DNA of 64,000 nucleotides from Cerrena zonata (Eukaryota > Basidiomycota > Agaricomycetes > Polyporales > Cerrenaceae): contig JASBNA010000005.1 in the NCBI GenBank assembly GCA_038087015.1, positions 1,054,001 to 1,118,000 of the forward strand, written 5' to 3'. Of this stretch, positions 28,940-54,229 are shown piece by piece. The notes beneath the pieces are model-generated. The model was not told the DNA's origin, ran no database searches, and saw only the letters and a list, made by a program, of their open reading frames with translations. Every line of letters begins with the position of its first letter. The stretch's first letter is position 1. The translations under genes were made by a program, and so were the position numbers.

Positions 28940-28946
28940 GTACTCC
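28940..28946. repeat. 7-bp target-site duplication GTACTCC (left of KDZ element)
   Basis: Identical to 43930-43936. It lies immediately outside the CACTAGTACC terminus. Confidence 0.9.
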
Positions 28947-30216
28947 CACTAGTACCTGACAGCTTTGTAATTACAGAACCCTCAATTGCCTCTAAGTTTC
29001 TGTGCATATTGAGGTCACCTGTGAATAATACACAAGTGAGTGGATATTAAATAACAATATACAACCACTCAGTTGTGAATAGCTGTCTTGTGATATGCAG
29101 ACCCAGTTGTTAATATCTCTTTAGGAGATGTTGTCTATTTGAGATACACTTGTATCTAGAAACAATTGCAGTAGGTTAACAACTGTACCATAGATAATTC
29201 TATAATATACTGATATTATATTGACCAGTCAGCTGTCAATATAGATAGAATAACAAGGGGATTAGTTGTATACTATTGTGTATAAAGGTCATCTGTACAA
29301 CTACAAAGAGTTTACAAGTGATGTACTTGTAACTTATATATGGTTGATAAGTGAATAAGTTGTGTAATGACAAGGTAGAATGTGAAATAAGTGGGTGGAT
29401 TGTGGATGAATTTTGGTCAACAGATGACTTAGTTGTAGTATGCTAAGTCTCTTTAATATACAGAAGGCTGACCTGTTATTAGATTAGGATAAACAGGTCA
29501 CACAATTGTATAATAGACCAGTTGAGCATAGTACATCTGGCTGATTTGTTAATAGAGAGATATTTACAAATGACTCTACTGTATATCTAGAAGAAAGTAT
29601 GTTGTACAGAAGGGTGACTTGTGATAGTGAAGAAAACAAATTAATGACTGAGTTGTATAAAAGCAGAACTTCAGTTAAACAACAAGCACAATTGTAGCTG
29701 GATATACTGTGACAAAAGGGCCAGTTGTATAAAGGTAGAGTGGTCATTTATACAAAAGGCTCAATTGTAGCTCACCATTATATGACAAATGGACCTTCTG
29801 TTGAATAGATATTATGGAAGACTGGCCTGTAGTATTATCCTGAGTTAACAGAAGACTGAATTGTAAATATAGAAATATGAACATAGTACAATAGGCTGAA
29901 TTGTGGTATAGTTGTCAGAGGACAGAAGGCTCAGTTGTAGAATGAGATACAACTATATATTACAACAGGCTGGGCTGTAGATCAATATCGAGGAACAAAA
30001 GGTTCAATTGTAAAATAGACAATGTACAAGTAATACAATAGGCTGGATTGTAATGCACCTATGAGAAGACAGAAGACCCAGTTGTAAAAACAGAAGTAAG
30101 TTAACAATACAACAGGCACAGTTGTAGATTAACATCTGGTAACAGAAGGCTGGATTGTAAATAGAGAGATATGAATATAGTACAATAGACTGAATTGTTA
30201 TACAATATTCAATAAC
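28947..30216 (+). repeat. Left terminal inverted repeat of KDZ element, ~1.27 kb
   Basis: The reverse complement of 42660-43929 with only a few differences, mostly at the inner end. It is AT-rich and holds the first part of the 17-bp motif array. Confidence 0.92.
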
Positions 30217-31035
30217 AGAAGACCCAAATGTAGAATGGAGTATATGCATGTAACACAGCAGGTGCAATTGTAAAACACTATCAAATCACAGAAGACCTAA
30301 TTGTAAAATAGACAGTGTGCAAGTAATACAAGAGGCTGAATTGTAGTGCAGTTATGAGAAGACAGAAGGCCCAGCTGTAAAATGAGACATAGCTGTATAT
30401 TAACATAGGCTGGATTGTAGATCAATACCCAGAAACAGAAGACCCAGTTGTAAATAAAGCACTATGAACATAGTACAGCAGGCTCAGCTGTAATACATCT
30501 AGGAGTAACAGAAGACCTAATTGTAGCAAAAGCAGTATGTCTATAGTACAGCAGGCTGGATTGTAGCTCAATATATAACAACAAATGGCTCAATTGTAGA
30601 AAGAGGAATATGAACATAGTACAGTAGGCCCAATTGTAGCTCAGTGTACAGTAACAGAAGACCCAATTGTAGAAAGAACAATCTGCATATAATACAATAG
30701 GCTGGATTGTGATTATATATTAAATGACAGAAGGCTCAATTGTGGAAAAAGTAATATGTATATAGTACAATAGGCTCAATTGTAGTCCAGTTGATTCATA
30801 ACAGAAGGTCCAGCTGTATAATAGAGAATATATATATAGTACAATAGGCGCAATTGTGGTTAATTAATGGATAACAGAAGGCTGAACTGTACAATAGCAG
30901 ATGGCAAGTTATACAAAACACTGGAATGTAAATGCCTATTAAATAACAGACCAGCCACTTGTACAATAAAGAACTTATCTGTCTAACAAAAGGCACTACT
31001 GTATATAGATACCCAATAACAAGTGACTCAGCTGT
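29712..31035 (+). repeat. Left subterminal array of a 17-bp near-palindrome, 33/40 spacing
   Basis: Copies of ACAGAAGGCTCAATTGT or ACAATAGGCTGAATTGT-like motifs follow each other in one orientation. Counted start positions include 29848, 29888, 29922, 29962, 29995, 30035, 30069, 30109, 30142, 30182, 30215, 30255, 30288, 30328 and so on to 31019. The steps alternate 33-34 and 40 bp. A-type (ACAGAAG...) and B-type (ACAATAGG/ACAGCAGG...) copies alternate with the spacing. Only a small irregularity near 29814 was seen. Such arrays fit subterminal transposase-binding sites. Confidence 0.9.
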
Positions 31036-31059
31036 ACATTTGTACAACTGATAGATCAG

Positions 31060-31484
31060 TTATGCATTTACACAAGATATAAGCCAAGGACAATCTCTTT
31101 TATCTTCAAGATACATTCCTCATCTATTGGCAACCCTTACAGATACACCACATTGAGCAGGAATACAAATTTATTGGTATTGTTACCAGTACACCCACTC
31201 TACATCACAAAAATAATACAACTGCATGTCCCAAATACTCAAACAGTATCAAGAATACCAAGAATAACAAAACAACAAAAATAACATCAAGACCACCAAC
31301 AACATCATAAGCATCAAGAACATCAAGAACATCAAGAACATCAAGAATATAGCAAGAAATAATAAATCAGACCTCAGGTATAACTGGATCAGGATTACAA
31401 GAAAACATTTGTCCAAGAAGCAGTAAACATAGTCCATGCAACACGAAGAATACGATGTCTAAGTCATAGTGAAGAGAAGCTTAT
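31060..31484. other. Spacer with (CATCAAGAA)n tract
   Basis: Between the left array and the minus-strand gene. A short run of AACATCAAG units lies at about 31306-31350. No gene seen. Confidence 0.5.
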
Positions 31485-33082
31485 TTATTTGCATGCCCTC
31501 TTGGTTTGTGCCTGTTGGGTGGTATCATTGGCCTTGCGCTTTCCCGGAGAACGAGACCGAGTGGTGGACTGGACCAGGTTATCAAGCACCCAATCAACAT
31601 CCTCTATTGCTTCCAAGACTTCCTTGCGTTGATGTGGCTGCTTGTCCAACACAGCGGTGAACCACCAGGCAAGCGAGACGATGACAAGATACAGTCCATT
31701 GGGACCACCTCGAAGAAGATCATTCCAGTCCATTCTTACAATGTTTCGCTCGCGAGCCCATGGCCACTGCTTAGTATCACGCCAAGCAGGTTGAAGTTCC
31801 GCCCACCACAGTTTCCAACTAGCCGTAAACGGCTTCAGCCTCAGTCCAGCCAATGACGGGATTTTGTCATAGCTACGAGCATTCTGCATGAATCGGCTGA
31901 TCTCTTCCGGTCTGTGTTTGGTCGAGAACTTGGCCTATAAATGACCGTCAGAAGGGAGACCTACAAAACAAACCAAGAGTTGACATACCTGCTTGCCACT
32001 ATGGCCTAGTACACCTTCAAGTTGAATCCACAGATTCACAAGATTGACCCATTTGCCATCGTCGGAAATCCCGAAAAGGTATTTCGCCGCCTTCTGGATG
32101 AATTCGCTAGCTCCGGAAGGAATAGCAACTTGAGATACAAGCAAAGAGGTAGGGGAGTGAGATCGAGATCGAGATGGTTGGGGGATGTCTACGACATCAC
32201 TCAAATGATCCGGAGGTGTATTGTTGCATTGACGAGAGGCTTGACCTCTGGAAGAACGAGTAGCGGTACGGCTAGAAGTACGGTTTTGTGCCTCGGGACG
32301 TGAATCTGGTTTACTGGAGCTGCGGGCAGCAGGCTTTGTGGAGGCAGCTGTAGGAAGACGAGCAGGGGAATGAGTACTAGAGCGGGTAGGAGGGCGAGGA
32401 CCGGAGCGGACGGGAACTGGCTCAACTTGTGTGGATTCAAGTTGACGTCGACGGGAGACATAGACCTTTGGGGCACGGTCGATGGTATCCCCATTAGAAG
32501 CTTGAGTTGAGTTGTTGATAGTCGTCATTGGGGGAGTGGGTTCCTGCCTCAGACCACCTCGAGGGGGAGCTGCAATATGACGAGGAGGACGGGGAGTTAC
32601 ATCCACATCCCCGTCTTCAATCATGCCTCTACTGGTGGCTTTCGTCCGGGAATTGGGAGTTGTGGTTGGTAAAGTGGAGTCCTGCTCCACGCCATTGTGC
32701 GAGGAGTCTATAGTAGTGCGACGACGAGGAGGTCGGGGTCGAGGAGTTACGTCCAGGCCATTGTCTTCATCGATTCTTGGTCCATCAATGCCTTCCTGTA
32801 CGGCATTCTGGGAAGGATCTGTGGGAGTATGTTTATGAGGGCGGCGGCGAGGAGGATGTTTGTGCATAGCCTCTTGTGTGGTATCCTGATCGCCGTCTAA
32901 ATCGTCTTGAGAGAGGCGTTGGGTTCGGGCTTGAGACCGAACCGGTGAGAGTTGCCGACGTGGGGGTCGCGAATGGAACCGAGATTGCGATCGAGATCGA
33001 GTCTTATCCTCCTCGTCTTCAGATTCTACAACCTCCTTCTCATACTCGTTCTGGTTCTGGTTCTGGTCTCCCTCCTCCTCCT

Positions 33083-33124
<42 letters not shown>

Positions 33125-34627
33125 CCTGCTCCTCCTGCTCCTCCTGCTCCTCGTCGCCCTCGATACTGCCTTTAGCATCCTTTCTGCCCCAGTCATCTTC
33201 ATTCTCGCTATCCTGGTCCTCGTTATCTTCGTCCGTGTCATCCTCGTTAGCCTTGGCTTTCCCCTTGCCCTTGCGGTCCTTCTTCTTCTTTAGGTAACCA
33301 TCCACCTTCAAACCGAGACCATGGAGGACACGCAGATTATCTTCAATACGGCGTTTTTTCTCTGCGGCTGTGGCTGGGTTGATCTTCCTGCTGGAGGGTC
33401 CCGGGCTTGTTCTTGAGGCAGCGATAGAAGGGGCACGAGAGCGGCTAGGCAAGATGTTTCGCTTGCCACGTCCACCGCTGTGGTTACTTGTCCCTCGATG
33501 GGAGCTTGGACCTGCCGCCGCTTTCCCCTTGCCGCTTTCCATCGACGCTTTCTCTTCTGACGCTACGAATCACTTTGTGAGTCTACAGTCTGGATACGAA
33601 AAGAAAACACTCACCAAAACATTCGTGGATAAACCCATACCATGACGAGTTGATTTGCTCAAAACAGCCGTCAAACTGATCCCACGACTGGCCATCAGGG
33701 GTCTTCCCATTGTGAAACCTAATAGTTCAAAGGTGAGAACTTGCCATTTCCCATATGATTTTGCTTACACATATGACTTGATCTCGTCAGTGTCAACATC
33801 CACGCCGCCAAGTAGCATCGAGCAATACCAACCCGTATCCCTCTCGATCGCATCGGCTGCGACTTGGATCGTCTTTGCCAGACGGTGGATTGCACTATTA
33901 GCCCATGTAAGAGTCCGTTTTCTCTCGCGGAGTGTTGAGAAACTCACTTGCTACGCTTTTTCTTCTGTGTGTCTTCGTCTTCGTCTATATCCCCTCCATT
34001 GAGACGGTATTGTTCCACATATGCCTTGACGTCCTCATCCTCGTCGCGGTAGAGGTCCTTAACGACTTCGTTTCTGAAGCCGAACTGGTCCGGCCTCGCA
34101 GCACCATCTGGTAATGTCTCCAACATTGCCTCCCAACGTGTCTGGATCTCTTTGCTTAACTCGTCTTTATATAGCTGGTGATAGGCCTGGTACGCCTGCA
34201 TAGTCTTTTTCGCTCTCTTGGTGAGGTCGATGACGCGGCCTTGCAATTTCGACGACTTCTTGGCCTTCCCTTCGCGCTTGTTATAGTACCAGTTGTATAT
34301 TTGCTGTACGGTACTATCAGCTGAGTACTCAACCCTGAGGTTTACCGAATGACTGACCTTTTCCCCTTCCTATATTATCGTCTTGGGCGGCCATCGCTTG
34401 AAATAATCTGCGTAGGTTTGGCTCAGGAATAGCTGTACCGTCACGTCTCCCTGGGCTACGCGGAATGCAGGCAAACGTTCTTGCAAGAACTCCTCCTGCT
34501 CCTCTTCAAATATGGATGGGCGACCCATGGTGGAATCTGTTGGCTGAGGTATAGGGCAGTCTTGGTTGAAGTTGAACGCAATCGGGCCCGTTTGTCGCGT
34601 GTGAAACAGGTTTTCCCCCTCGGGCAT
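31485..34627 (-). CDS. Accessory gene of the KDZ element, unknown function, probably damaged
   Basis: Minus-strand exons, in order: MGRPSIFEEEQEEFLQERLP and FLSQTYADYFKRWPPK (exon 1), TVQQIYNWYYNKREGKAKKS through GRVIDLTKRAKKTM and WEAMLETLPDGAARPDQFGF, then AIHRLAKTIQVAADAIERDT, RFHNGKTPDGQSWDQFDGCF, a ~400-residue low-complexity part (poly-E/Q, many RP-S-T repeats), GASEFIQKAAKYLFGISDDG, and a conserved end with WWAELQPAWRD, RGGPNGLYLVIVSLAWWF. The N- and C-terminal blocks look like a recurring agaricomycete protein of unknown function; I cannot name a domain. A TAG follows PPKTII in exon 1 (about 34370), which is either a mutation or an unrecognised splice site. It is divergent from the transposase, so it is probably part of the element. 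Confidence 0.6.
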
Positions 34628-37600
34628 CCAGATTACCTGGCTTAGGCTGGCCTTCTGGTCTTCTCTGCCATTCCATCCGCAATAAAAGTGAAGTAAATAT
34701 ATTTATTACTGGATATCCTTACACATTGTCTATCTACATGTCAATATGCTATTGCGAGCACTACAAACGGTTGCTAAAGAAATCATCCAACAGATCCAAT
34801 CCACCATCCCCAGTCCATTTCCGACATTCATGTCTGAAGTTCAATTCCGCCAATGGTCGCCTCGCCACCCGCACAATCAATGTACCGTCATCTGTAATTC
34901 GGCACCGCGGTGGTTATGGTTTCCGGTTGAACTCGCGCCATATGGCAAAATGAAGGCGGTTGCTCGATACGCAGACGTCGTCTTCATGACCATGACGAGG
35001 CGAGTGAGTACAATTGCGGCTCAGGGCTGTCTGTAATGGTCTTAACGGACAGAGAGCGATGGTATGTAGCTCTTTGAGTGTCTGTAACCTACAGTAGAAT
35101 TATGAATAAAGTTCCGAAGTCCCCCAAATGTTGAGCCCAGCCCACAAGTTACGAAGGGTAAGTCAGGATGGGTAATCGAAGCCACCTACCAGACAAAGAA
35201 GAACAAAGGTCGCCGATATCTGGTACCGAGTGGTGACTGCTTGTAAGCAAACAATGCCGGTGCCGTCGGGACGATCTGTAAGGAAGCAGATCAAATGGTG
35301 AGGGTGCGGTTATTGCACATTGCTACCATATAAGCTATGGGGATTACCATTTCGCTATGGCATAGATATAACCGCAGGCAACAGCACGATGGGGATGGTA
35401 GACCCCTTCGACAGAACGGAAGGTTTATTACTATTCCTGAAGCTCGTCAGAGGTTAACTAAGTGGGGAGAGTCACGAGATAGCACTGGATCTGCGAGCTT
35501 AGTTGCTATATGTTTTGGTAAGGTGGAAGCGAAGGGCGATCATAATCTAGAGCATGCTCGGTGCACCATGGTTAGAATCGACATCGGAGTAAGTGACTTA
35601 TCCATGAATGGGTTTGGGTTTGAGGATGAAGTTGCGAAGACACCAAGTTCAACCATGATTTCGGCCGGTGGGGTGTAGCCGACAACAGTGGTGATTGGAA
35701 GTCCTTGAATTCAAACATAATAGTCATGGCTCAGAAAGTCGTATTCAGGTTGGTGGTGTGTAGGATAAGTCATCTGCATTTGGTTCTGATCTGTATTCGA
35801 CGTCGATATGATAAACAAATAATACTTACTTAGATCAGAGCATACACCCACACCGAGCGATGGCATTTCTTCGCGACATACGGAAGCCTTTAACATTCAA
35901 CAAGATACCACGTGGCACGAATATGTATAGCGGAGGCCGTGGGTGAAGGTCAATCATTTGAGTTGTGGTAATACCCTTCGACGTGAATCCTCAAGTAAAT
36001 AGTCATGAAGGTATTGAACGCATGGTCCGTAATCGTTCATAGAGGGAGATCTGAGTATCATTCGAGTGGTCTAGTAGTCATGTCTATGAGACCGCCAGGT
36101 TAGAAGTAGCCCTTAATTATCATAGGCAGTATGAAGGTGTGAGATAACAGCAAAGGAGTCTTCAAGGTGTAAGTAGAATCTTGTTCGAGCTGGGAATCGT
36201 GTAAAATGATCCCTGTAGTCCAGCAATGAATGCCGTGACCAGCTTGGATCGTTGGCGTTCCGATAATACACACCTATAGACCAGACATTAGTCGACACAT
36301 ACACACACATACTGAGCAAGGAGTAACACCTCTATACAGACTAACAAACGAACATTTCGACAAACGATGCATCAACCATGCAAAACAGCATTTACCCAGT
36401 GAGTTAGCAGGCGACTCTTGTTTGTAGTTTGATAGTTGGATTAAATGGAGATTCAAACATACCTGAGGATTTATATCAGGCTCAACACGAGCCTTGAGCT
36501 TGAGAAATGTCGACAAAGTCAGTATGTATGTTCAATTTACGCCACTAACCCTAAGGTTAAGTACTCTAGCAGGAATAGGCAGTTCTTGTGGAAACGCCGA
36601 GTTGTCCAGTTGTTGTAACGCCTTCTGACTCTTACACCGAACTCCTTGAGTCGAGTTTCATTTCTCTCATGTCCTCAATTTGCTGCTTGAATCTCTCTCC
36701 CGTTCTTTCGTGCTGAACGTGACGAACAAAGGTGCCGGATAGATTTGGATAAGCATAGTCTCACATGAACTTTTACGAATGACTGTTGCGGTGAGCACTC
36801 CTGCAATCCACTCTGTGGGATATTTACCACCTTCTGCTATCGTAGGCTGCTATATACTTCTATCTCTCCTTCTCAACTAACCTAATCGACTAACGGTCGC
36901 ACTCACCAACGATAATCCTGACGACGGCTGCAATATGTGTTGCCCGATACTTGTGCTTTCTCTCTACCCCACAATGAATGCCTACTGTACTATGGCTACC
37001 TCGGAATCCGATACATCAATCGATCACACACCGTTTGCATGTTGTGCGAGCACCTCTGAGTCAGCTAACCTGCCGTATTATCAATACCTGAAGTGCTACA
37101 CAATGGATCGGTCGGGCTAACGAGTAGGTGAGTAGCTCATGACCAGCTAACGACCATCTCTAATCGTATGCACTAGGTCCGAGTCCATTACGGAGAAGGA
37201 CTTCCACACAATACGATATGAATCCCGCGGTCACAATGGCTGTAGAATACCTCCCTCTTTACTAGACCTGACATGGAGGTCTCCTTACACCTCCAACGTG
37301 AACACACCCTTATGCCATGGTATAATTCGATCTCTCAAAGGTGCGCTACTATCAACGATACTATGAAGATCCTTATACTTACATGGACTATATCAGTTCC
37401 TCCAACACTTGTATGTCGTTCATAACCTAATGCTTAACTCTCGCCTTCACGAAGCACGCAGATCGTTATCCACCCCTTCTATATATGTTCATGCCCAATG
37501 TCAATTCCTCGTCGTGCCGCTTTCATGGGGGCTTATTACAATAATCTTTGCCCGATTCTCTTGCGGCTCTCGCACATGTTGTATGCCTTACATGTCAATA

Positions 37601-38305
37601 CAGAATTCGTTCAGACTCTCAGTACCGATCTCAACGCTGTATGCGCCTGAGAGACCAAGATGGCAAATTTCTCGGCAATAGTGTTACATTCAGGCAAATC
37701 GGGAAGCATGTCCAGTACCGGGTAGTGCTTTATCGTATGCGTTTCGCTACATGGAGAGACGACAACTTGAAACCTTGAATTCATTTCGAGGCATTTATTG
37801 AGAACCGTACGCGCTCAGCTGTCACAAACTGATGTGCGCGTGCAATGAGACCTCGCAGGCACTCTCACCACCGTTGAAACGACAGCGTACGTTGCTACCA
37901 TTCCCTTTTCTCTTTCTTTTAGTTCCACGCAATCGCTCATATCCCAGGCTCTTAGTACTCAAGCTCGATATTGCTTTGTATGTACAAGCTTCTCGTGGAA
38001 TGTACTGTTCCTGCTCTCATCGAAACCACGTTCACAGGGAGTCGTCGAACATTTCTACCTCTATCGAGCAGTTGTATCGATACCTGACTTTAGGTATGTG
38101 TTCTCGTCTTGTTTTGCTTTCATGTTCATGCGATCTCACGCGTATCCCCCCTCTCACTTTTCAGTCGAGCCTATATCTCTGCGAGTGCCTCTCACAGATT
38201 GATCTGAGACGTATCATATATCTGCGAGCTTGTACGTGATCTTACGACGAGAGCAATTTGCTACGGTTTATGACTCGGGTACTATGATAGGTTCCGTGTT
38301 GTGAG
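34628..38305. other. 3.7-kb gene-free centre of the KDZ element
   Basis: No ORF here shows a domain or a paralogue in the window. It contains the presumed divergent promoters of the accessory gene and the transposase. The base composition is ordinary and the 17-bp motif is absent. It could hold decayed cargo. Confidence 0.4.
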
Positions 38306-41300
38306 ATGGAGCCAGAGCCAGATCCGATCCATCACCAGCTACCAGACCTGTCAAAACGCAAACGGAGACCAAAAAATACGGGGAAATTCACCAAGATAGC
38401 GGGTCCCAAGAAAGCAAACACTTCTAACTATCAAATTCGAAAGCTGGATGGGGGACATTTAGGACAGACTCGTACCCGCCGTATGGATCAAAACACTCAA
38501 GCCGCGCGGGAAGAAGTCAACGATGATCAGGTTCAGGTGGGCGTTGAGCAGGATGATCTAGGTGACGATGGTGCTGGTCCTAGCTGCGAGGGGGTGGGTG
38601 ATTCTGAAGAGACCACAGGCAAAGCTACGCCTCGACGTCCCCCACGACCAGGACGGCGGAATACATGGTCGGTGAGTAGCTTGCGATCAGGAGTATGAGT
38701 TTTTAGTTAACGTTCTCTTAGGATCGAGTGGAGCAGTTTCTGCCATATCGTGACCTCTATCTAGCAGAGCTTCTACGCCACGATGGTATGGGAGATGCCT
38801 CGGATGATTATATCTGCACTAGTTGTGGCGAAGCAGGAACTGCCACGTACCGCTGTTGTGACTGTGCGTACTCACCATTGTGTTGTCGCAACTGTCTTCT
38901 GGAGGCACATGACTCATTACCATTGCATCGCATTGAGGTATGCCCAATGCTATTTGTCTTGTTCGGTGCTTACTTGGATGTAGGAATGGACCGGGAAATA
39001 CTTTATGAAGGCGTCCCTTAAGAAGCTTGGGCTCCGTGTTCAACTTGGTCATAGCGGCGGTCCATGCCCATGTCCGGGACGTCATAACCATAAGTTTATA
39101 GTTGGCAACCTCAACGGATTTCATGAAGTTGATGTCCGGTTTTGCGCCTGCTATGACAACAACGGTGAATTTCTCTTTTATTGGCAGCAACTTCTTCAAA
39201 TTGGGTGGTTCCCGGCTACCCAAGAGCGTCCGACAACTGCTTTCACATTCGACCTCCTCAACTTTCTGCACCAATTGAACCAGCAAGGGAAAACAAGCTT
39301 GTATGATTTTCACAAGACCCTTTTGCGGATAACCGACAACTCAATACCCTTGACTGTTGTAAGCTCCTCATATTCAACTATTAGTTTGTAATACTGCTGA
39401 TACCCTCATTGTAGAATCGATATGATCAGCTGTCAACTGTTCTCAGATTTTGGCGCCATCTGATGATGCTTAAACGTGCTGGTCGTGGTCATGACCCTGA
39501 TGGTATTGATAATACTGCTGCTGGTGAATTAGCAGTTGAGTGCCCTGCTTGTCCTCATCCAGGCAAGAACCTTCCAGTAGGTTGGGAGAATGCTCCTCCT
39601 GGTATCTTGTAAGTTCTGGATTAACTTTCAGAAGTTCTTTTAATTAAATCTATATAGATGGCTATATACCCTCTTCTTGATGGTTGATGCCAATTTCAAG
39701 CTCAAGTTAAAGGACAAAGGGATTATTGATACTTATCTATCTCCTGGGTGGGCCTACTTTGTAAATGAAGAGAAGTTTCAGAAATATCTTTCAAAGCATG
39801 CTGGGAAAGACCAAGCAGAGGTAATGCAGTCTATTTAGATTGAGATTGATTTCTGATTAAATTGTTTGTCAGACCAACACTTGCTCAGCAGAACATCGAG
39901 CTATTGCAAATGCAAATTTACACAAAGAGGGATATCTAGCATCTGGTGTTGCTGCTATTCTTTGTGGAAGACATGCTCTTGTGAGACCTAATGGTGTAGG
40001 AGATCTTCAAAAGGGTGAAAGGTAATATTCTAATCTGGTTTAAGATACTACCACATGCTAATCAGAATACTCTAGATATGTCAATATTGACTATTTGATC
40101 ATGTCTACTCTTTGGGGGATTTGGTATATTTTGCTTCTAATTTCCTATGACATTGCTTGCCAATTTTACAAGAACTTCTTCAAACGCATGATGAAGAACT
40201 TCCCTCCCACAATGCAGCTAGATACTGATCCTAGCAATATCAGTTGGGCAGTCCCCAAAAAGCATATTGCTGTTCATGGTCCAAACCACTCACAGTTTTC
40301 ACTCAACTTTCTTCCTGGTGTTGGAAAAACATATGGGGAGGGAATTGAATCTGGATGGTCTCATATGAATCCTATCTCTATGTCCACCAAGGAGATGGGG
40401 CCTGCTGTGAGGCATGAGACACTGGATGATCATTGGGGTTCCTGGAATTGGATGAAGATTCTAGCCCTTGGTAATAATGATTTATCTTATCTTATATTAT
40501 CTTTGCTAATTTTTATGTCAGGATGGCTATTGGCCAAGTCTTTGCTCCATGCATATTTGATGCAAGAAAAGCATAGGAAGATCTTTGAAGAGTATAATGT
40601 GACATTTCCTACTGATCTCACATATGCTTGGAGAAAACATATTGAGAAATGGAACAAGGACCATAGTGTTAAACCTGATCCTTATGAGGACATTGAAACA
40701 TGTAAGTGTTGATAAACTTTCAACTATAAAGATTAGCTTAATAGATATTATTAGATGTAACATTGCAGGAAGTTAGGCTCAAATTAGCTCAAGAAGAAGC
40801 TCAAGATATTGCCTTATCTGATGATGCTTGTAAAATGCCTCCAAGTGCTTTTCTTCATTTAGGTCTAGAACTTGAAGAGCAGCAGTAAGTCCTTCAACAT
40901 CAATTAAATTATCTTAACTAATCTTAACTTATACTTTAGACGTTCACTTCTTGCTCGAAGTCTTACCTCCAAAACTGCTACAGAGCTTGCTAGCTTGCAA
41001 GATAAGCGTAATCTTTTGATGCGGCGCATTTATAACTGGCAACAGATGCAAGATATCTATATGCCATTTGTTGTTTCTTTGCGACAGTCTTCTGATTCTC
41101 TTGAAGCAGAGGAATCTTCTCCAGAGCTTGCAGAAAAGGTCAACCTTTGGCTACCATCTGCTTCTCCACCTACCTTTAGGCCATCTATCAGCACCCTTAT
41201 CAACAAAGAGAAGAAACTCCGCTTAGCTCAAGCTCAAGATGCTTTATCTCATATATGACGACTTCGTCGCATTCTTACCAATGTCTCTCAGTTCAAACAC

Positions 41301-41999
41301 ACCAATATCTCTGGCACAGGCAACCGCTCTAACACTCGCATGAGAACTCTGTTCAACAAGTTCCAAACAAGAATCAAGCTAGCAGCATCAAGATATCGTG
41401 CTGCATATGCTGCATTACTTGTTATTGAGCCTGAGGGGCTGTGTTTAGGCAACTTGAAGAAGCTAAAGGATGAGGATATTAGGGGTCCTGGAAGAGAAGA
41501 GGAAGATGGATTTACAGAAGGGACATTTGAGCCCTCTTGGATTTGGTTAGTTCACACAGAAACTGACACTTCACAGGAATTCTCAAATGCAATGAGAGTG
41601 GAGTGGGCCAAAACCAAGGCAAGAGCAGAAAGATGGGCAGAGGAGGTGAGATTGTTGCAAGAAGAGATGAGAAGAGTACTGGAGTACTTTGAATGGAAGG
41701 CAAGGTGGTGGAGGATGAAGAAAACTGATAGAGCAGATGTTGATATAGGTGTTCAAAGAGGACTTCTAGCATATGCTGAGAAGCAAGCTACCATCTTTGA
41801 CAAATTGGGGAAAAAGTTTGCCCTTCAGTGGTCAGCAGTCCTCACCAAACATGGGTTGAGGGCAGATTGGCAAACAAGATATAGCAAGATGTCTAATTTG
41901 TTGTCATCATGGGAGATGTTAGAGGAAGCTGAACAAGAAAAGGAGAATGAGTCTGATTCAGATGATAATGAAGGGGATGATATCATGGACATAGATTAG
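38306..41999 (+). pseudogene. KDZ transposase with CxC2 cysteine cluster, one premature stop
   Basis: At least nine exons. The N-terminus is basic and hydrophilic. Then come the Cys motifs CTSCGEAGTATYRCCDC and CAYSPLCCRNC, and the CxC2 domain with WTGKYFMKASLKKLGLRVQL, PCPCPGRH, VRFCACYD and WFPATQERPTTAFTFDLL. The RNase-H-like catalytic core follows: LMVDANFKLKLKD (first D), SYDIACQFYKNFF (second D) and GEGIESGWSHMN (E). A long acidic, charged C-terminus ends DDIMDID. Exon 3 is about 38985-39360. An in-frame TGA at 41256-41258, inside SHI-stop-RLRRILTNV, separates the core from the last ~245 codons in the same frame. CGA to TGA would explain it. The catalytic residues are present. Confidence 0.88.
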
Positions 42000-42069
42000 A
42001 TTTGATAGTATATATTCCTTTGCTCCAGTTGTAAATGATCATTATTTATCTAGCCTGGTTGTAAGTCAA

Positions 42070-43720
42070 ATCTAATTACAAGTTGAATTATTGACAACCC
42101 AGCCTTTTGTATAAGATATTTTATAGAAATTGTACAGCTGAGTCACCTGTTACTGGGTATATATATACAATGGGGCCTTTTGTTATATATAGAATTTCTC
42201 TATTATACAGGTGGCTGGCTTGTGACTTCAAATATATCTATAACCCAGTGTTCTGTACAACCTACTATTATTTATTGTACAGCTCAACCTCCTGTTATTA
42301 AATAGGTAATCACAATCCAGCCTATTGTAGTATATTGCTATGTCTCATTTTACAACTGGGTCTTCTGTTTCTGGGTATTGATCTACAATCCAGCCTGCTG
42401 TATTACTTGCATATTGTCTATTTTACAATTGAGTCTTCTGTATTTAGGTATCAATCTACAATCCAGCCTATTGTAGTATATTGCTATGTCTCATTTTACA
42501 ACTGGGTCTTCTGTGTCTGGGTATTGATATACAATCCAGCCTATTGTGATATATGGCTATGTCTCATTTTACAACTGGGTCTTCTGTCTTCTCATAACTG
42601 CACTACAATTCAGCCTCTTGTATTACTTGCACATTGTCTAGTTTACAGTTGGATCTTCTGTTATTGAATATCATATAACAGTTCAGTCTATTGTACTATA
42701 TTCATATCTCTCTATTTACAATCCAGCCTTCTGTTACCAGATGTTAATCTACAACTGTGCCTGTTGTATTGTTAACTTACTTCTGTTTTTACAACTGGGT
42801 CTTCTGTCTTCTCATAGGTGCATTACAATCCAGCCTATTGTATTACTTGTACATTGTCTATTTTACAATTGAACCTTTTGTTCCTCGATATTGATCTACA
42901 GCCCAGCCTGTTGTAATATATAGTTGTATCTCATTCTACAACTGAGCCTTCTGTCCTCTGACAACTATACCACAATTCAGCCTATTGTACTATGTTCATA
43001 TTTCTATATTTACAATTCAGTCTTCTGTTAACTCAGGATAATACTACAGGCCAGTCTTCCATAATATCTATTCAACAGAAGGTCCATTTGTCATATAATG
43101 GTGAGCTACAATTGAGCCTTTTGTATAAATGACCACTCTACCTTTATACAACTGGCCCTTTTGTCACAGTATATCCAGCTACAATTGTGCTTGTTGTTTA
43201 ACTGAAGTTCTGCTTTTATACAACTCAGTCATTAATTTGTTTTCTTCACTATCACAAGTCACCCTTCTGTACAACATACTTTCTTCTAGATATACAGTAG
43301 AGTCATTTGTAAATATCTCTCTATTAACAAATCAGCCAGATGTACTATGCTCAACTGGTCTATTATACAATTGTGTGACCTGTTTATCCTAATCTAATAA
43401 CAGGTCAGCCTTCTGTATATTAAAGAGACTTAGCATACTACAACTAAGTCATCTGTTGACCAAAATTCATCCACAATCCACCCACTTATTTCACATTCTA
43501 CCTTGTCATTACACAACTTATTCACTTATCAACCATATATAAGTTACAAGTACATCACTTGTAAACTCTTTGTAGTTGTACAGATGACCTTTATACACAA
43601 TAGTATACAACTAATCCCCTTGTTATTCTATCTATATTGACAGCTGACTGGTCAATATAATATCAGTATATTATAGAATTATCTATGGTACAGTTGTTAA
43701 CCTACTGCAATTGTTTCTAG
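42070..43720 (-). repeat. Right subterminal array of the same 17-bp motif
   Basis: Inverted counterpart of the left array: motifs such as ACAATTGAGCCTTTTGT and ACAATCCAGCCTATTGT in the opposite orientation. The outer 1.27 kb repeats the left arm base for base with few differences. Inside about 42660 the two arms diverge but keep the motif. Confidence 0.88.
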
Positions 43721-43929
43721 ATACAAGTGTATCTCAAATAGACAACATCTCCTAAAGAGATATTAACAACTGGGTCTGCATATCACAAGACAGCTATTCA
43801 CAACTGAGTGGTTGTATATTGTTATTTAATATCCACTCACTTGTGTATTATTCACAGGTGACCTCAATATGCACAGAAACTTAGAGGCAATTGAGGGTTC
43901 TGTAATTACAAAGCTGTCAGGTACTAGTG
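42660..43929 (-). repeat. Right terminal inverted repeat of KDZ element, ~1.27 kb
   Basis: Reverse complement of 28947-30216, ending GGTACTAGTG at 43929, followed by the duplicated GTACTCC (43930-43936). Confidence 0.92.
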
Positions 43930-43960
43930 GTACTCCTACTTCTGGGATACTCACTGTTTT

Positions 43961-45154
43961 ATGCCCCAGACCCGCTCTGCATCTCACGCCCCAGACGCAT
44001 CACCCCTATTCACACCCCTACCTCCTACCACTCGTCCACGTAGGATTATGGATGCTACTAATCCCCCTGCTGAGCATCCTGGTATGGATGCACGTAACCC
44101 TCCTCCTGATCCTCCTCCCGAAGAACCACCCCGTCGCGCTTCTACCCCTCCCCGGAGAGCAACCACCCCTCCTCGTCGCACTATCAGCCCAGAGCTTCGA
44201 GACATCATGGGTGCTGTTCGCTCCTCCAATGTCCGATCCCCCGATACCTTCGATGGCTCTGACGCTAAGAAGCTGGCCTCATTCCTCCTCATGCTCTCCA
44301 TCTACTTCCAATCCCACCCTGGTCGTTTCAAAAACGATCGTGACAAGGTGCTCTTTGCCGTTTCCTACTTGAAAAGTACTCCCCTGGAGTATTTTGGTCC
44401 TGGTGTACAGGCCTCCGACCTCGGCGAAGAGGAGCCCGACTGGCTCTGGGACTACCCTCAGTTCGTTCGTGAACTCAGGGAAAACTTCGGAGAACAGGAT
44501 CCGATCGGAACCGCTCAGTCCAAGATTTCCACTCTTCGTATGAAGAATGACCAGAAATTCGCTGAATACTTGGTCAAGTTCAACAACTATGCTAACAAGA
44601 GTGGTTGGGACGAAGCTGCGCTCCGATATCGGCTTTACGACGGACTTCCTGATAGGATCAAGGACGAACTCTCCCGTTACCCCAAAATCGACGACCTCAG
44701 TGAACTCAAAAGCTTTGTACGTTCTGTTGACTCCCGCTACTGGGAACGTCAGGAAGAGAAACGTTGGACCAATCCCTCCTCTAATTGGGATCGGACCTCC
44801 GACACAGCCAAGAATTCTGGCAACAACAACCAGTCCTCTAACTCTTCCAAGAACAAGGGCAAGTCGTCGTCCTCCTCCTCCTCCTCTGCCAAACCCAACA
44901 AGTCCTCCAATTTCGCTACTTCCTCCGCTAAGCCTGCTGCCAACACTAACATGGACGGCAAGCTCAACAAGGAAGGCAAGCTCACCGATGCAGAGCGACA
45001 GCGCCGCATCGACAACAAGCTCTGCCTCTTCTGCGGACAGTCAGGACATATGGCTAGGGAATGCCCCAAGTCTACTTCCCGCGCTGCTAAGGCTCGTGGT
45101 GCCAAGGCTGGTGAAACATCAAGCCAGGCCACCCCTGCTCAGGGAAAAGCCTAA
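43961..45154 (+). CDS. Chromovirus Gag
   Basis: 397 codons starting MPQTRSASHAPDASPLF. A Pro/Arg-rich N-terminus precedes the capsid-like retrotransposon Gag region: SPDTFDGSDAKKLASFLLML, YFGPGV, LRENFGEQDPIGTAQSKIS, MKNDQKFAEYLVKFNNYANK, LYDGLPDRIKDELSR. A Ser/Asn/Lys-rich linker and a CCHC zinc knuckle CLFCGQSGHMAREC follow. It assembles the virus-like particle and binds element RNA. The frame is open from end to end. The leader between the 5' LTR and this ATG is only about 40 nt once the KDZ element is removed. Pol begins in another frame just downstream. Confidence 0.93.
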   Translation: MPQTRSASHAPDASPLFTPLPPTTRPRRIMDATNPPAEHPGMDARNPPPDPPPEEPPRRASTPPRRATTPPRRTISPELRDIMGAVRSSNVRSPDTFDGSDAKKLASFLLMLSIYFQSHPGRFKNDRDKVLFAVSYLKSTPLEYFGPGVQASDLGEEEPDWLWDYPQFVRELRENFGEQDPIGTAQSKISTLRMKNDQKFAEYLVKFNNYANKSGWDEAALRYRLYDGLPDRIKDELSRYPKIDDLSELKSFVRSVDSRYWERQEEKRWTNPSSNWDRTSDTAKNSGNNNQSSNSSKNKGKSSSSSSSSAKPNKSSNFATSSAKPAANTNMDGKLNKEGKLTDAERQRRIDNKLCLFCGQSGHMARECPKSTSRAAKARGAKAGETSSQATPAQGKA

Positions 45155-45171
45155 GCAACTCCCAGGATTCC

Positions 45172-48100: not shown

Positions 48101-48808
48101 CTACTTCCTATCGCGGAGTTTGCTTATAACAATGCCCCCTCTGCTACTACTGGGATTTCCCCCTTCTTCTCCAACAAAGGCTATCACCCCAACCTCACTA
48201 TCCATCCGGAACGCGACCTCGCTTCTGCCAAAGCACAAGAATACGCTGTCGATCTCGAGCAGCTTCACATTGCCTTACGCTCCGAAATCGCAGAATCGCA
48301 GAAGCGTTACCAAGGTCCCGCCGATTCCCGACGAACCCCTCCACCGGAGTTCAAGATTGGTAGTTTTGCCTATGTCAAGGCCAGATTCTTCAGGACAACT
48401 CGTCCCTCCAAGAAACTCTCTGAAAAGTATCTTGGTCCCTACGAAGTCATTGCTCAAGTTGGACCACAGTCCTACACCCTCCGACTTCCCGACTCAATGC
48501 GCGCTGTTCACCCTGTCTTCCACGTCTCCATGCTCGAACCTTCATCCCCCAGCTCTATCCCCGATCGCATTCCGACTCCTCCGCCACCTGTCGAGGTCGA
48601 CGGTGAACTCGAATTCGAGATCAGCGAAATCCTCGATTCCAAGGTCGACAAACGTCGCAAGTGCAAGATCCTTTACCTTGTACGCTGGACTGGCTATGAA
48701 GGTACCGACGAAGAAACCTCCTGGCTTCCGGCCACGGAACTCGAACACGCCCCTGACTTACTTCAGGCCTTCCACACTTCATACCCTGATAAGCCTGGCC
48801 CCTCCTAA
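45172..48808 (+). pseudogene. Chromovirus Pol (PR-RT-RNaseH-IN-chromodomain), broken by a stop and a 25-bp duplication
   Basis: Protease: FNTLIDSGSSHCFLD. Reverse transcriptase: [61 protein letters not shown] (YLDD). RNase H: IVETDASDYALAAIL and VVTDHKNLTYFSTTK. Integrase: HHCC zinc finger around HFLSGHFGINKTLELVRREY and CTTCRRSK, DDE residues in SMDFIEQLP, TSDRGSEFVSHFF and HPEGDGQMERTNQ. C-terminal chromodomain: FEISEILDSK, LYLVRWTGYEGTDEETSWLP. Defects: an in-frame TGA at 45766 just after the protease, and a tandem 25-nt duplication (about 46051-46102) that shifts the frame before LCVDYRGL. The second frame is then open to 48808. The family is Ty3/Gypsy chromovirus. Confidence 0.93.
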
Positions 48809-49652: not shown

Positions 49653-49659
49653 AGCACGC
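49653..49659. repeat. 7-bp target-site duplication CAGCACG (left of second transposon)
   Basis: The partner at 54230-54236 is CAGCATG, one mismatch. Confidence 0.85.
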
Positions 49660-51360
49660 ACTAGTACCTGGCAACGTTGTAATTACAATTACCTTAACTG
49701 TGGTAGAATCCTTGTGAAGATTAAGGGGCCTTGTACTTGTAGTTGAATGTAGGAGTTGTAAATGAATTAAGAGCTTGTACAAGAGATGCAGTGGTTTAGG
49801 CTTCTTATTGATTATTGAAACAATTGTAGAAGATATGGGGAATAAATAAAGGCCTATTTGTCAATACTTCAGTATTGAATACTGTTAGACTAGTTAATAT
49901 ATGTGCTATACTATTGGAGCTATTATCAATGAACTTGATGTACTAAATAGACCACTTGTATCTGAAAATTCAGAGTGTATAGTACAAGTGCTAGATGTTG
50001 TAATTAAGAAGATAATACAAGTGGCTCTCTTGTAGCCTATAGCAATATTGACTAATGATAAATGTGCCAGTAATAAATGAAAAATAAATATCACTGGTCC
50101 ACTTGTGAATATTAGGTGATGTATATGCTGGGTAATTGTATATCAAATGAGCAATATATTGTACAAATGGCTAAGTTGTCAATCTATCTATCTATACAAG
50201 TGGGTAACATGTAGATATAGTCTATAAGTCTGATGAACAAGTGGTCCAATTATCAAAAGGTCATCATTGACAACTGACTTAATTGTAAAATAGCAATATT
50301 GTGTGATATACAAAAGGTTCAATTGTAAGTAACTTCCATATTGACAAATGCTCCTTTTGTTGAATATTGATATACAACTAATCAACAACTCATTCATTTG
50401 TTAAACAGTATATATATATCTGATGTACAATAGCACTGATTGTCAATGATAATCAATTAACTACTGATCTATTTGTAAGATGCTAAAAATATCTGATGTA
50501 CAAGAGGCTGAGTTGTACATTCCAACAATGAAATGATATACAAAAGGCCCACTTGTTGTTATAATATCCACTAACAAATGAACCAGTTGTCAAAGACTAT
50601 AGAATCTGATTGACAAAAGGTCCCCTTGTTTTTGAATTTTCAATAACAAATGAGCCAATTGTATATTGCTGAGGACAGTGGATGTACAAATAGTCCAGTT
50701 GTCCATAATAACTTATGTACCACTGGGCCATTTGTATCTTTTCACATATACATGATCTACTACAGCTTCAATTGTTGTTAAAATATTTACTGACAATTGA
50801 TCCAATTGCTGGATATTTGAAAATCAGATCTACAATAGGCCCATTTGTTCATTATTATTTATGAACAATTGGGCTACTTGTAAAAAGGTTCAAGTATTGT
50901 ATTAACATGAGAGCCAATTGTAGATAAATACTCATTGACAATTGGCACAGTTGTAATATGCACAAATTTTATATCAACAAGAGGGCCAATTGTCAATAGA
51001 TATTAACTGACAACTGGCACAGTTGTAAAATATGATATACAAAGGGCCAGTTGTTGTTCAATTGGGTATTGACAATTGACAGGCTTGTAGATAATTATAG
51101 ATAGATGATATACAATAGGGCCACTTGTTAATGACATCTCATTGACAACTGGGAACATTGTAGAAGATCATAGATGTGTGATAAACAAGGCACCCATTTG
51201 TAATTGAGAAGAAATGGACAATTGATCTAGTTGTACAAACCAGCCTAAAAGAATATACAATAGCCACAGTTGTTGTTGCATCTTGACTGACAACTGCACC
51301 AGTTGTAGAAGTAGATAATATTTGATATACAACAGGTCCTCTAGTCAATTACAAATTATA
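49660..51360 (+). repeat. Left inverted arm and motif array of second transposon
   Basis: The outer 715 bp mirror the right arm. The array of ACAACTGGCACAGTTGT-like motifs continues to about 51360. The small minus ORF at 49906-50094 recurs at 53794-53982 and is not a gene. Confidence 0.88.
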
Positions 51361-53180
51361 AAACAATTCCCAATACTGCTTTATGATAGAGTCAATATTG
51401 GATGATAAATAGTGGGAGAGGAGGCAGGATATAGGTCATTTACAGGACATGTTAGAGCATGTTCCTACATGCTTTGATTGCTCCTAGATGTGTCAAATAG
51501 CTAGGGAAGTATGTATACCAACTAGCTTATTTATAGCATGCACAATGGTAAGGAAAAAGTGAAGATACTCCTAAAAAGAGTGTAGAGAAGCAGGTACTCA
51601 GATCTCACCAACCCCTACACCAGCTGGGCTGTGCTTTTGAGTACTTAGTACTATAATATATACTAGATAATATCCAGAGTTGCAGGACCTGCAGTGCAGA
51701 GTTACTCCTATAAATCACCTCCCAATATACACTATTTCTGCACAAAAACATATATATACCCACCTAGAGATAGATAGAGTAACATTCAGATGGAAAAAAG
51801 ACTACTTTTGGTGGGTTTTAAGTACCCCCCACAATCCTATCCAGCTGCCCTGACCATAGGACATACTTTTTTTCAACACTAGGGTTAGTATGCCTAGTTG
51901 CAAGTTTCACTCAAACAGCAATTCTCTAAGACACCTCTTTCACTATACCATAGACCATGCTGGAAGTTCTGTCATGGTAGCTGGGGATTCAGAGACTAAT
52001 TTCTGTTCCTCATCTAGGCTACCCCTCCATATGTTATCTGGTGCAATAGTAAGACCTATAGGTCTACAAAGAGGTGTGATTTGAGGTTTCTAGGTCAAGG
52101 GGAGAGGAGGGATGGGTCGCATTTTTGAGGGCTATCCCTAAGCTGAGGAGTAAAGGGGAGAACCAAATTGGGCTTCTTTAAAAGGGTAATAAGCACAAAG
52201 ATACCATTTATCCAAAGGATAGATACAGCCCTTGCAATAGTGATCACAAAAATACCTTTTTTTTGCCCATCTGTCCAAAGTAATAGGATTCTGGAGGGCC
52301 AACCATTGGGATTAATGTTAATTTGCTGTACACATATCTTGAGGTATACTACATATATATCTATATCAAGTGAACTGTCCATAGTTCCTTCCATTCCTAA
52401 GTTATTTGAATATATGTACAGAAGATAGTGTATATTTCGCATTTTGGGCACTATATACAAGGTCCATACATGGTAAATCAAGATATAGCTCTGTGGAGTG
52501 GAATATATTACTCCCCAATGTCCATCTCGACTTTACTATCACCAATAGTGAAGAGAATGACTGGTGCCTCATAGGAAGCCCTGAGTATCCCCCCAATTTC
52601 GCTTTTCTATGGTATTACCAAGTACAGAATCTGCAGGTCTTGTTCAAATGACTTGTGGGTTGGAATATACCTTTCCCTAGCATAGCTACACAATATATAA
52701 CCACCTCTTTATGATTGAACCATTTCATCCAATCCCATTTCAATTAGAACCCCCTTTTTTGATTTTCCCTCACTATTTCTATTATTACTCAGTCATTTCT
52801 TATCCTATTGATATGGGGGTTTCAGATATGGATTCAGCAAAGAGGTGCCATTCTTTTGGTACCTAGAACATGTTCTAAATGTAGGTATAGGGTCCTGCAG
52901 CATCCCCTATCTAAATGCAATCTATATTCTCAAATAGGCAGGTGCTGACATAAGTGGGAGCCTAAAAGGGAAGGTGGCAGAAGCTATTGAGACACTGCCA
53001 CAACTCCTCCCATTCCCATCAGAGATACTTACTATATATAGAATACCTGTGGAAGCAAAAAATGTGGCAGTGAAGCCACAAGAAAGCTATTTGGGTCCAC
53101 CATCAATTTTTAGCACCTGTGGGAAACCACATTCTATATAGGGATATGTCTTTTTCCATCCCCAACTACCATATGTTGCT
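51361..53180. other. Unique centre of second transposon, no gene seen
   Basis: About 1.8 kb, with ORFs up to 128 codons on both strands but no recognisable domain. The sequence is neither array nor retroelement. It could be captured or decayed cargo. Confidence 0.4.
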
Positions 53181-54229
53181 TTATATTATATCTTACAACT
53201 GTACCAGTTTTCAGTATATATTTATCTACAATTGGCCTAATTGTCAATAACTGATAATAAACCAATAAGCCTATTGTATATTATATTCTCAAATATCTAA
53301 CAATTGATTCAGTTGTCAATAAACATATGAATAACAACTGAGACTTTAGTAGAAATGTACAAATGATACAATTGTACATAAGCTATTATAAACAACTGGC
53401 ATATTTATTATTGAAAATTCAAAAACAAGTAGACCTTTTGTTAATTAGGTTTTATAGTCTTTGACAATTGGCTCATTTGTCAGCGAATATTTTAATAACA
53501 ATTGAACCTTTTATATATCAATATTCAACAAAAGGAGCATTTGTCAATATGGAAGTTACTTACAATTGAACCTTTTGTATATCACACAATATTGCTATTT
53601 TACAATTAAGTCAGTTGTCAATGATGACCTTTTGATAATTGGACCACTTGTTCATCAGACTTATAGACTATATCTACATGTTACCCACTTGTATAGATAG
53701 ATAGATTGACAACTTAGCCATTTGTACAATATATTGCTCATTTGATATACAATTACCCAGCATATACATCACCTAATATTCACAAGTGGACCAGTGATAT
53801 TTATTTTTCATTTATTACTGGCACATTTATCATTAGTCAATATTGCTATAGGCTACAAGAGAGCCACTTGTATTATCTTCTTAATTACAACATCTAGCAC
53901 TTGTACTATACACTCTGAATTTTCAGATACAAGTGGTCTATTTAGTACATCAAGTTCATTGATAATAGCTCCAATAGTATAGCACATATATTAACTAGTC
54001 TAACAGTATTCAATACTGAAGTATTGACAAATAGGCCTTTATTTATTCCCCATATCTTCTACAATTGTTTCAATAATCAATAAGAAGCCTAAACCACTGC
54101 ATCTCTTGTACAAGCTCTTAATTCATTTACAACTCCTACATTCAACTACAAGTACAAGGCCCCTTAATCTTCACAAGGATTCTACCACAGTTAAGGTAAT
54201 TGTAATTACAACGTTGCCAGGTACTAGTG
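53181..54229 (-). repeat. Right inverted arm and motif array of second transposon
   Basis: Inverse of the left arm, ending GGTACTAGTG. It is shorter than the left array, so part of one side has been lost or gained. Confidence 0.88.

Follow-up and report, generated by a model that had tools for sequence, protein, structure and literature searches.

A strictly alternating subterminal site array in a KDZ-superfamily transposon of Cerrena zonata, and relatives that share its 73-bp period with a different motif

The regular array of short sites described in this work is the left end of E1, a transposon of the KDZ superfamily resident in the genome of the polypore Cerrena zonata. The array is made of 73-bp units, each hosting two alternating 17-bp sites, and the chances appear about even, as judged from sequence comparison, that the sites are bound by an element-encoded protein aiding transposition. 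Relatives of E1 marked by the same terminal tip carry arrays of the same period built on a different motif. The window, i.e. the whole stretch of DNA analysed, spans 64,000 nucleotides and belongs to contig C5 of the 55.5-Mb genome, in which 141 exon-level KDZ domain matches have been counted. Coordinates of the features are reported in Table 1.

Table 1. Coordinates, in the window, of the elements E1 and E2 and of their parts
Feature	Positions	Strand	Remarks
E1, KDZ-superfamily transposon, 14,983 bp	28947..43929	+	tips CACTAGTACC...GGTACTAGTG, 7-bp duplication, KDZ and CxC2 domains
Target-site duplication GTACTCC, left copy	28940..28946	.	identical 7 bases at 43930-43936
Target-site duplication GTACTCC, right copy	43930..43936	.	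matches left copy
Terminal tip CACTAGTACCTG, common to the element group	28947..28958	+	pattern CACTAGTACCTGNCA at 15 genome places
Right terminal tip of E1, inverted	43918..43929	-	
Regular 33/40 array, E1 left arm	29420..31035	+	weaker irregular sites outward to 28973
Regular 33/40 array, E1 right arm, mirrored	42094..43456	-	
E1 accessory gene, exon-sized open frames	31485..34702	-	conserved in E4; no Pfam match in scanned frames
E1 KDZ transposase gene, several exons	38291..41999	+	KDZ PF18758 in 39644-39835, 39861-40022, 40062-40712; conserved with E4
CxC2 cysteine-cluster exon of E1 transposase	38984..39391	+	PF18803, E 1e-37
E2, second element, same tip, without recognisable gene	49659..54229	+	flanks CAGCACG / CAGCATG, 6/7 equal
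Regular array, E2 left arm	50163..51345	+	
Array, E2 right arm, less regular	53195..53725	-	

The initial annotation had regarded the array as the subterminal arm of a transposon of the CxC2 type, and tips, target-site duplication and KDZ and CxC2 domains (Table 1) bear this out. The exon at 40062-40712 matches the KDZ domain PF18758 with an E value of 1.9e-32 and 113 bits, against a cut-off of 26.6, and two further exons also score above the cut-off. The arms of E1 have 1327 bp in common, are 99% identical, and are complementary, i.e. inverted; being near-copies, they do not provide independent array counts. The region around E1 and E2 is a nest of mobile elements. A Ty3/Gypsy-type retrotransposon with a chromodomain resides at 43961-48808, between the two. 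An AMP-binding enzyme domain (E 1.3e-25) is found at 57080-57772 of the window, by its look in a host gene fragment.

Sites were identified by a 17-position motif model, seeded with the motif of the initial annotation and refined by expectation-maximisation. Sites were counted at a score threshold of 8, and steps between sites were assigned to two classes, 32-34 and 39-41 bp. More than 30 sites in one orientation, set at alternating steps, had been reported between 29848 and 31019; the model detects 33 in this interval, all in a single orientation, and all 32 steps measure 33/34 or 39/40 bp and strictly alternate. Lowering the threshold adds one weak site at 30380 (score 6.8), which divides one of the steps. 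At threshold 8 the left arm hosts 50 sites in all, and 44 of the 49 steps between them belong to the two classes; the right arm hosts 43 sites, with 37 of 42 steps in class. Adjacent pairs of steps alternate in 42 cases on the left and 35 on the right, and never fail to do so. In 200 dinucleotide shuffles of each arm, at most three sites and not one step in the classes were found. The rhythm extends over 1.6 kb in the left arm and, mirrored, over 1.4 kb in the right arm, the outermost ~440 bp of the element being irregular. The extent first proposed, 29712-31035, has to be revised, since the regular part begins at about 29420 and ends at 31035, includes one irregular unit of 63 bp rather than 73 (steps of 29 and 34), and recurs, mirrored, in the other arm.

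Identity autocorrelation of the left arm of E1 peaks at lags 73, 146, 219/220, 147, 33, 40 and 106. The mean unit is 73.3 bp long, which corresponds to 10.47 bp per turn over seven turns, as anticipated by the earlier proposal of a dimeric period of 73-74 bp close to seven DNA turns. The best helical period over 45 sites, searched in the 9-12 bp range, is 10.46 (R 0.80), but the test lends by itself weak support to phasing, because any 73.3-bp unit favours 73.3/7. The two motif subtypes said to alternate with the spacing are real. GAAG occupies positions 4-7 of the motif in 13 of 21 sites preceding the long step vs 3 of 22 preceding the short one in the left arm (p=0.0016), and in 9 of 13 vs 0 of 12 among the inner 26 sites of the right arm (p=0.0005).

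The sequence between motifs had been described as variable, and this applies to some regions only. In the inner array of E1 pairwise identity is 0.79 and 0.75 for motifs, 0.54 and 0.44 for spacers, and 0.28 by chance. Motifs are thus better conserved than spacers, but spacers exceed chance, hence tandem duplication contributed to the array. Tandem repeats finder (TRF) periods of multiple units (146, 220 and 293) were also found in E1. In the outer array spacer identity drops to 0.36 and 0.29 (5 and 6 spacers), near chance, and 11 of 12 steps are in class. In the inner array 4 of 14 B spacers are longer by one, and none of the 14 A spacers, vs 148 substitutions counted; so few indels are not far below what the local substitution:indel ratio would give.

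E2 lacks KDZ matches, and none of the nine open frames of 60-145 aa in its core has a Pfam match above cut-off. Its arms are 720 bp long and wholly complementary, with arrays of 1.2 and 0.5 kb made of a motif related to that of E1, of the ACAATTGG-CCA-TTGT type. With the model trained on E1, the left arm yields 34 sites; 24 of the 33 steps between them are in class, and adjacent pairs alternate 20 times and never repeat. A model trained on E2 itself detects 41 sites, with 33 of 40 steps in class (0.83), 26 pairs that alternate and 2 that do not. Of the seven off-class steps, three measure 73-74 bp, and each corresponds to one missed site with the register kept. Values for the right arm, with the same model, are 16 of 23 steps in class, 8 pairs alternating and 3 not. 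In the regular part of the left arm 30 of 32 steps are in class, and spacers are near chance, identity being 0.36 and 0.40 (11 and 11 spacers) vs 0.28. Subtypes are recognisable also here, since T is found at position 6 in 14 of 15 vs 3 of 14 sites (p=0.0001; site 51038 left out), and the mean unit in the measured stretch is 72.7 bp, or 10.38 bp per turn. E1 and E2 can be aligned over only ~67 bp, at 79% identity, which indicates that the rhythm outlasted the spacers. The persistence of arrays in an element without recognisable gene is what would be expected of cis-acting sites.

A 97% copy of E2, called E3, resides at C77:63344-68199, the whole element being in opposite orientation. E3 carries 281 extra bases inside the array, and its flanks have no matching 7-bp duplication. 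Changes between E2 and E3 hit 31 of 1088 motif sites and 53 of 1590 spacer sites (p=0.50). Motifs are therefore as changeable as spacers, and no selection is seen on resident copies. Substitutions and indels in the core of the two elements are 61:3, a local ratio of 20:1.

The tip pattern CACTAGTACCTGNCA has 15 matches genome-wide, and the same pattern read backwards, used as control, none. In addition to E1-E3, the tip marks E4 (C2:629859-644606), E5 (C14:567876-581159), E6 (on C25), E7 (on C38, near the contig end) and E8 (on C77), and an E1 fragment of ~395 bp on C97. The match at C16:413171 was rejected as an element, falling in coding DNA without a 73-bp period, and its arm was retained among the 15 arms tested as one devoid of period. 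Perfect 7-bp duplications flank E4 (TTCACCT) and E5 (AAACTTA), and identity of the KDZ core to E1 is about 70% in E4 and 68% in E5. E4 has the two-gene layout of E1, and both E1 genes are present in E5; E6 and E8 yielded accessory exons only, and E7 neither the accessory nor the KDZ gene. In E4 an open frame with a ribonuclease H1 N-terminal (Cauli_VI) match (L081:4684-5220, minus strand; E 5e-6) lies between both genes; the match is absent from the scanned E1 frames.

Arrays in E4-E8 are inverted pairs of a TATAACCACTG-like site. No similarity is detectable between the units of E4 and E1, as 239 of 300 shuffles score as high. Nonetheless, lag 73 is strongest in both arms of E4 and E5, in E6, in E7 (tied with 219) and in E8. 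Overall, lag 73 is top or tied in 11 of the 15 arms, these seven plus both arms of E1, the left arm of E2 and the right arm of E3. The 15 arms do not count as independent cases, since large parts of them are near-copies, both between the left and right arms of an element and within the pairs E2/E3, E4/E8 and E6/E7. In the right arm of E2 and the left arm of E3, copies of one arm, lag 33 leads, and lag 73 is second and third; the arms on C97 and C16 show no 73-bp period. In the right arm of E5 the units, compared at lags 73-219, share 92-95% identity and form a nearly pure tandem repeat; duplication alone explains such likeness. A 33/40 split inside the E4-type unit was considered and discarded. 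Centring on the palindrome AACCASTGGTT yields 33/40, but different choices of centre within these inverted sites yield different splits, and the underlying palindrome scan did not cleanly recover the sites of E1 itself. The group represents a natural experiment, in which tip, transposase core and period are shared and the sites are written in two unrelated alphabets.

At two more distant KDZ loci, on C25 and C34 (38% and 34% identity), the KDZ exon and the sequence following it, 5 kb in all, show no 73-bp period, the highest lag-73 z in any 600-bp window being 1.3 and 0.6, respectively. The period is therefore not universal in this position among KDZ elements. Lag 33 reaches z values of 4.8 and 6.0 in C34 and C25, among other lags divisible by three, and in C25 the signal overlies an acidic low-complexity coding stretch. 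The C34 element hosts behind the KDZ exon a 217-bp tandem repeat (L064:2212-2862; ~2.8 copies, 97% alike), perhaps another kind of end array.

In both E1 and E4 the accessory gene reads toward the left arm, and the KDZ gene toward the right arm. Since both genes end at the arms, the arrays do not lie at their promoters, and a main role as promoter or enhancer of the element's own genes was discarded. Identity of accessory exon 2 is 97% between E4 and E8, 67% between E4 and E5, and 39% between E4 and E1. Figures for the last exon are 91% (E4-E8), 86% (E4-E6), 79% (E4-E5) and 41% (E4-E1), and those for the KDZ core 91% (E4-E5) and 69% (E4-E1). Across motif classes the accessory protein is less conserved than the KDZ core; faster change alone is no proof of a binding role. 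Seven further loci (C11, C25, C157, C29, C143, C34 and C118) host relatives of the last accessory exon in the vicinity of KDZ genes. The divergent gene pair is therefore probably older than the arrays of the E1-E8 group. Pfam detected no known domain in the scanned frames of the accessory protein. A RIKNWFYN stretch resembles, by eye, a homeodomain pattern; the notion of a homeodomain-like factor was abandoned, as there is no Pfam match even at E 10 and the structure model is poor (pLDDT 57.5). Searches for relatives of the E1 accessory exon outside this genome found none, and the one relative found for the E4 exon is itself from Cerrena zonata.

How much of the regularity is due to selection, and how much to duplication, was addressed by simulating neutral drift from a star-like start of identical units; the steps compared with the simulation come from parts chosen as regular. 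At 10, 20 and 40 substitutions per indel, the fraction of steps kept is 0.51, 0.66 and 0.80 when spacer identity has fallen to 0.38, and 0.63, 0.77 and 0.86 at an identity of 0.50. At 20:1 and 0.38 identity (0.66 kept, sd 0.08) none of 40 runs reaches 0.90, the highest being 0.84; at 0.50 identity 2 of 40 do. At 40:1, the level of 0.90 is reached by 1 of 40 and 13 of 40 runs at 0.38 and 0.50 identity, respectively. The spacing kept by the regular part of E2 mostly exceeds neutral expectation at 10:1 and 20:1, and neutrality may still fit if indels are as rare as one per 40 substitutions. The value of the whole left arm of E2, 33 of 40, is about that of the highest neutral run at 20:1.

These data bear on the hypothesis of an inherited satellite, according to which unequal exchange and slippage amplified a 73-bp ancestral unit, tandem duplication carried the period along, and spacing itself serves no function. 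The nearly pure tandem copies of the right arm of E5, the multi-unit periods and above-chance spacers of E1, and motifs which do not change more slowly than spacers between E2 and E3 are all in keeping with it. Yet, 30 of 32 and 11 of 12 steps are kept in the regular part of E2 and in outer E1, where spacers are near-random, neutral simulations at 10:1 and 20:1 mostly fail to retain such spacing, and the two subtypes still alternate in E2. The hypothesis deserves consideration, but is on the whole rather unlikely. The conclusion drawn here is that the arrays arise by tandem duplication, and that their register is probably maintained by selection acting when an element transposes. The earlier claim that spacing rather than sequence is conserved is supported by E2, by the arrays of E4-E8 with their different motif and by the simulations, and has to be tempered for inner E1, where block duplication made part of the regularity.

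Binding of the sites by an element-encoded protein would work as follows. The protein would line up along the array on one side of the DNA, 73 bp plausibly mattering as seven helical turns, and, once aligned, would help to join the two element ends for transposition. The initial annotation had thought of a dimeric transposase or of a host factor. The evidence favours the accessory protein at least as well as a dimeric transposase, because the KDZ core diverges far less from one motif class to another than this protein does; another candidate would be the N-terminal, variable part of the transposase, and a host factor is not favoured. By analogy with plant CACTA elements, labour may be divided between a conserved protein at the tips, here the KDZ/CxC2 protein at the conserved 12-bp tip, and a fast-changing protein at subterminal sites. 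A bolder version may be tentatively put forward, and is possible rather than probable. The ends would carry a phase-locked code, in which the register of two sites per seven turns is invariant, and the site letters are swapped wholesale together with the accessory protein, the whole forming a one-sided, ruler-like scaffold over 1-2 kb per arm. If true, spacing would be the invariant, and sequence the variable, of end recognition. Two questions become testable, whether the array reader is the accessory protein or the transposase, and whether spacing is under selection during motif replacement. If spacing is selected while the motif is replaced, the arrays would represent ready-made, long and regular docking ladders.

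CpG dinucleotides are almost absent from the arms of E1, which contain 2 in 2130 bp and 1 in 1900 bp (observed/expected 0.03 and 0.02), as compared with ratios of 0.75 for the E1 core and 0.89 for the sequence outside. CpG is near-absent at 28947-31400 and 39401-43929, and normal in the centre of E1. The desert goes on into the transposase gene, whose 3' half it covers save one 400-bp block, and stops sharply at the accessory gene; the map is the same in E4. The depletion would fit either old methylation followed by decay or binding sites that avoid methylation. The arrays might alternatively be anti-silencing targets, as those of VANC in Arabidopsis VANDAL elements, at which an element protein strips or blocks DNA methylation, motif replacement being an escape from other families and from small-RNA silencing. 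The near-absence of CpG from the arms of E1, its total absence from the first 870 bp of the seven E4-E8 arms, and the strong divergence of the accessory protein between motif classes are compatible with such a role. The targets of VANC21 lie in noncoding parts and consist of motif arrays in one orientation, and motifs differ among related VANDAL families (PMC5735166, PMC10398659); TET/JBP genes reside in some fungal elements of the KDZ superfamily (PMC12730594). However, the scanned open frames of E1 and E4, which are part of all frames, gave no TET/JBP match, the loss of CpG extends over a large part of the transposase gene's 3' half and looks like past methylation rather than protection, and the available portion of PMC5735166 describes no phased spacing for VANDAL arrays. 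An anti-silencing function is accordingly quite improbable.

The nucleosome core measures 146-147 bp, and lags 146/147 are strong; positioning of nucleosomes, or of another host protein, on the arms by pairs of units is very improbable all the same, because in the arms of E1 and E4-E8 lag 146 never outscores lag 73, and is thus not preferred, and because a single host factor would not explain motifs which differ among elements of one genome.

The proposed binding of the arrays by a protein of the element itself is best viewed against other transposons. Subterminal repeats are known in CACTA, hAT, Mutator-like and VANDAL elements (PMC2613891, PMC10368747, PMC5225508, PMC5735166). The literature searched yielded no description of subterminal repeats, or of end recognition, for KDZ elements, and the word "subterminal" is absent from the main text of two KDZ papers (PMC12730594, PMC12810828). 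E1 has the KDZ domain PF18758 and the CxC2 cysteine cluster of this superfamily. It resembles Kyakuja elements, which have a KDZ domain, CA..TG termini and 7-bp duplications (PMC12730594). The termini of E1 are CACTAGTACC..GGTACTAGTG, and the duplication is perfect in E1, E4 and E5, equal at 6 of 7 positions in E2 and not matching in E3. In contrast, the two Laccaria families Kyakuja-1_LB and -2_LB are said to lack TIRs (PMC12730594), whereas the arrays of E1 are held in inverted 1327-bp arms, 99% complementary. E1 is filed as KDZ only, the group below the superfamily being left aside. KDZ1-3 of Cryptococcus have TIRs of 139-241 bp and duplications of 4-8 bp (PMC12810828).

Among elements with other transposases, Hermes, of the hAT family, carries two repeats in a 17-bp piece forming a quasi-palindrome bound by two BED domains; its 17 and 14 short sites are asymmetrically set at both ends, and no fixed period is described in the portion of the report available (PMC10368747). 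The Mutator-like Muta1 of Aedes aegypti is an active element with subterminal tandem repeats within the TIR, as in E1, but these are 9 copies of 12 bp separated by 3-4 bp spacers, in a TIR of 145 bp flanked by 8-9 bp duplications (PMC5225508). VANDAL elements share with the E1 group one-orientation arrays of short motifs differing between related families, and the VANDAL element protein co-evolves with them; their function is anti-silencing, and the arrays are located upstream of a gene and in introns (PMC5735166).

The likeness is broadest with plant CACTA elements (En/Spm, Tam1, Tgmt*), which combine, as the elements described here, a conserved short tip and transposase with many subterminal motifs at both ends. 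Variable subterminal repeats are bound in CACTA elements by TNPA, the motif differs between subfamilies of one genome, and accessory DNA-binding proteins are little alike (PMC2613891). The tip of the E1 group likewise begins with CACTA. The transposase is different, as the scanned E1 frames gave only KDZ and CxC families above cut-off, and no EnSpm (tnp2-type) match, and the duplication is 7 bp long instead of the 3 bp of CACTA/EnSpm elements. The repeats of Tgmt* number 4 in 159 bp and 24 in 732 bp (PMC2613891), whereas the arrays of E1 run regularly over 1.4-1.6 kb in a two-site register of 73 bp.
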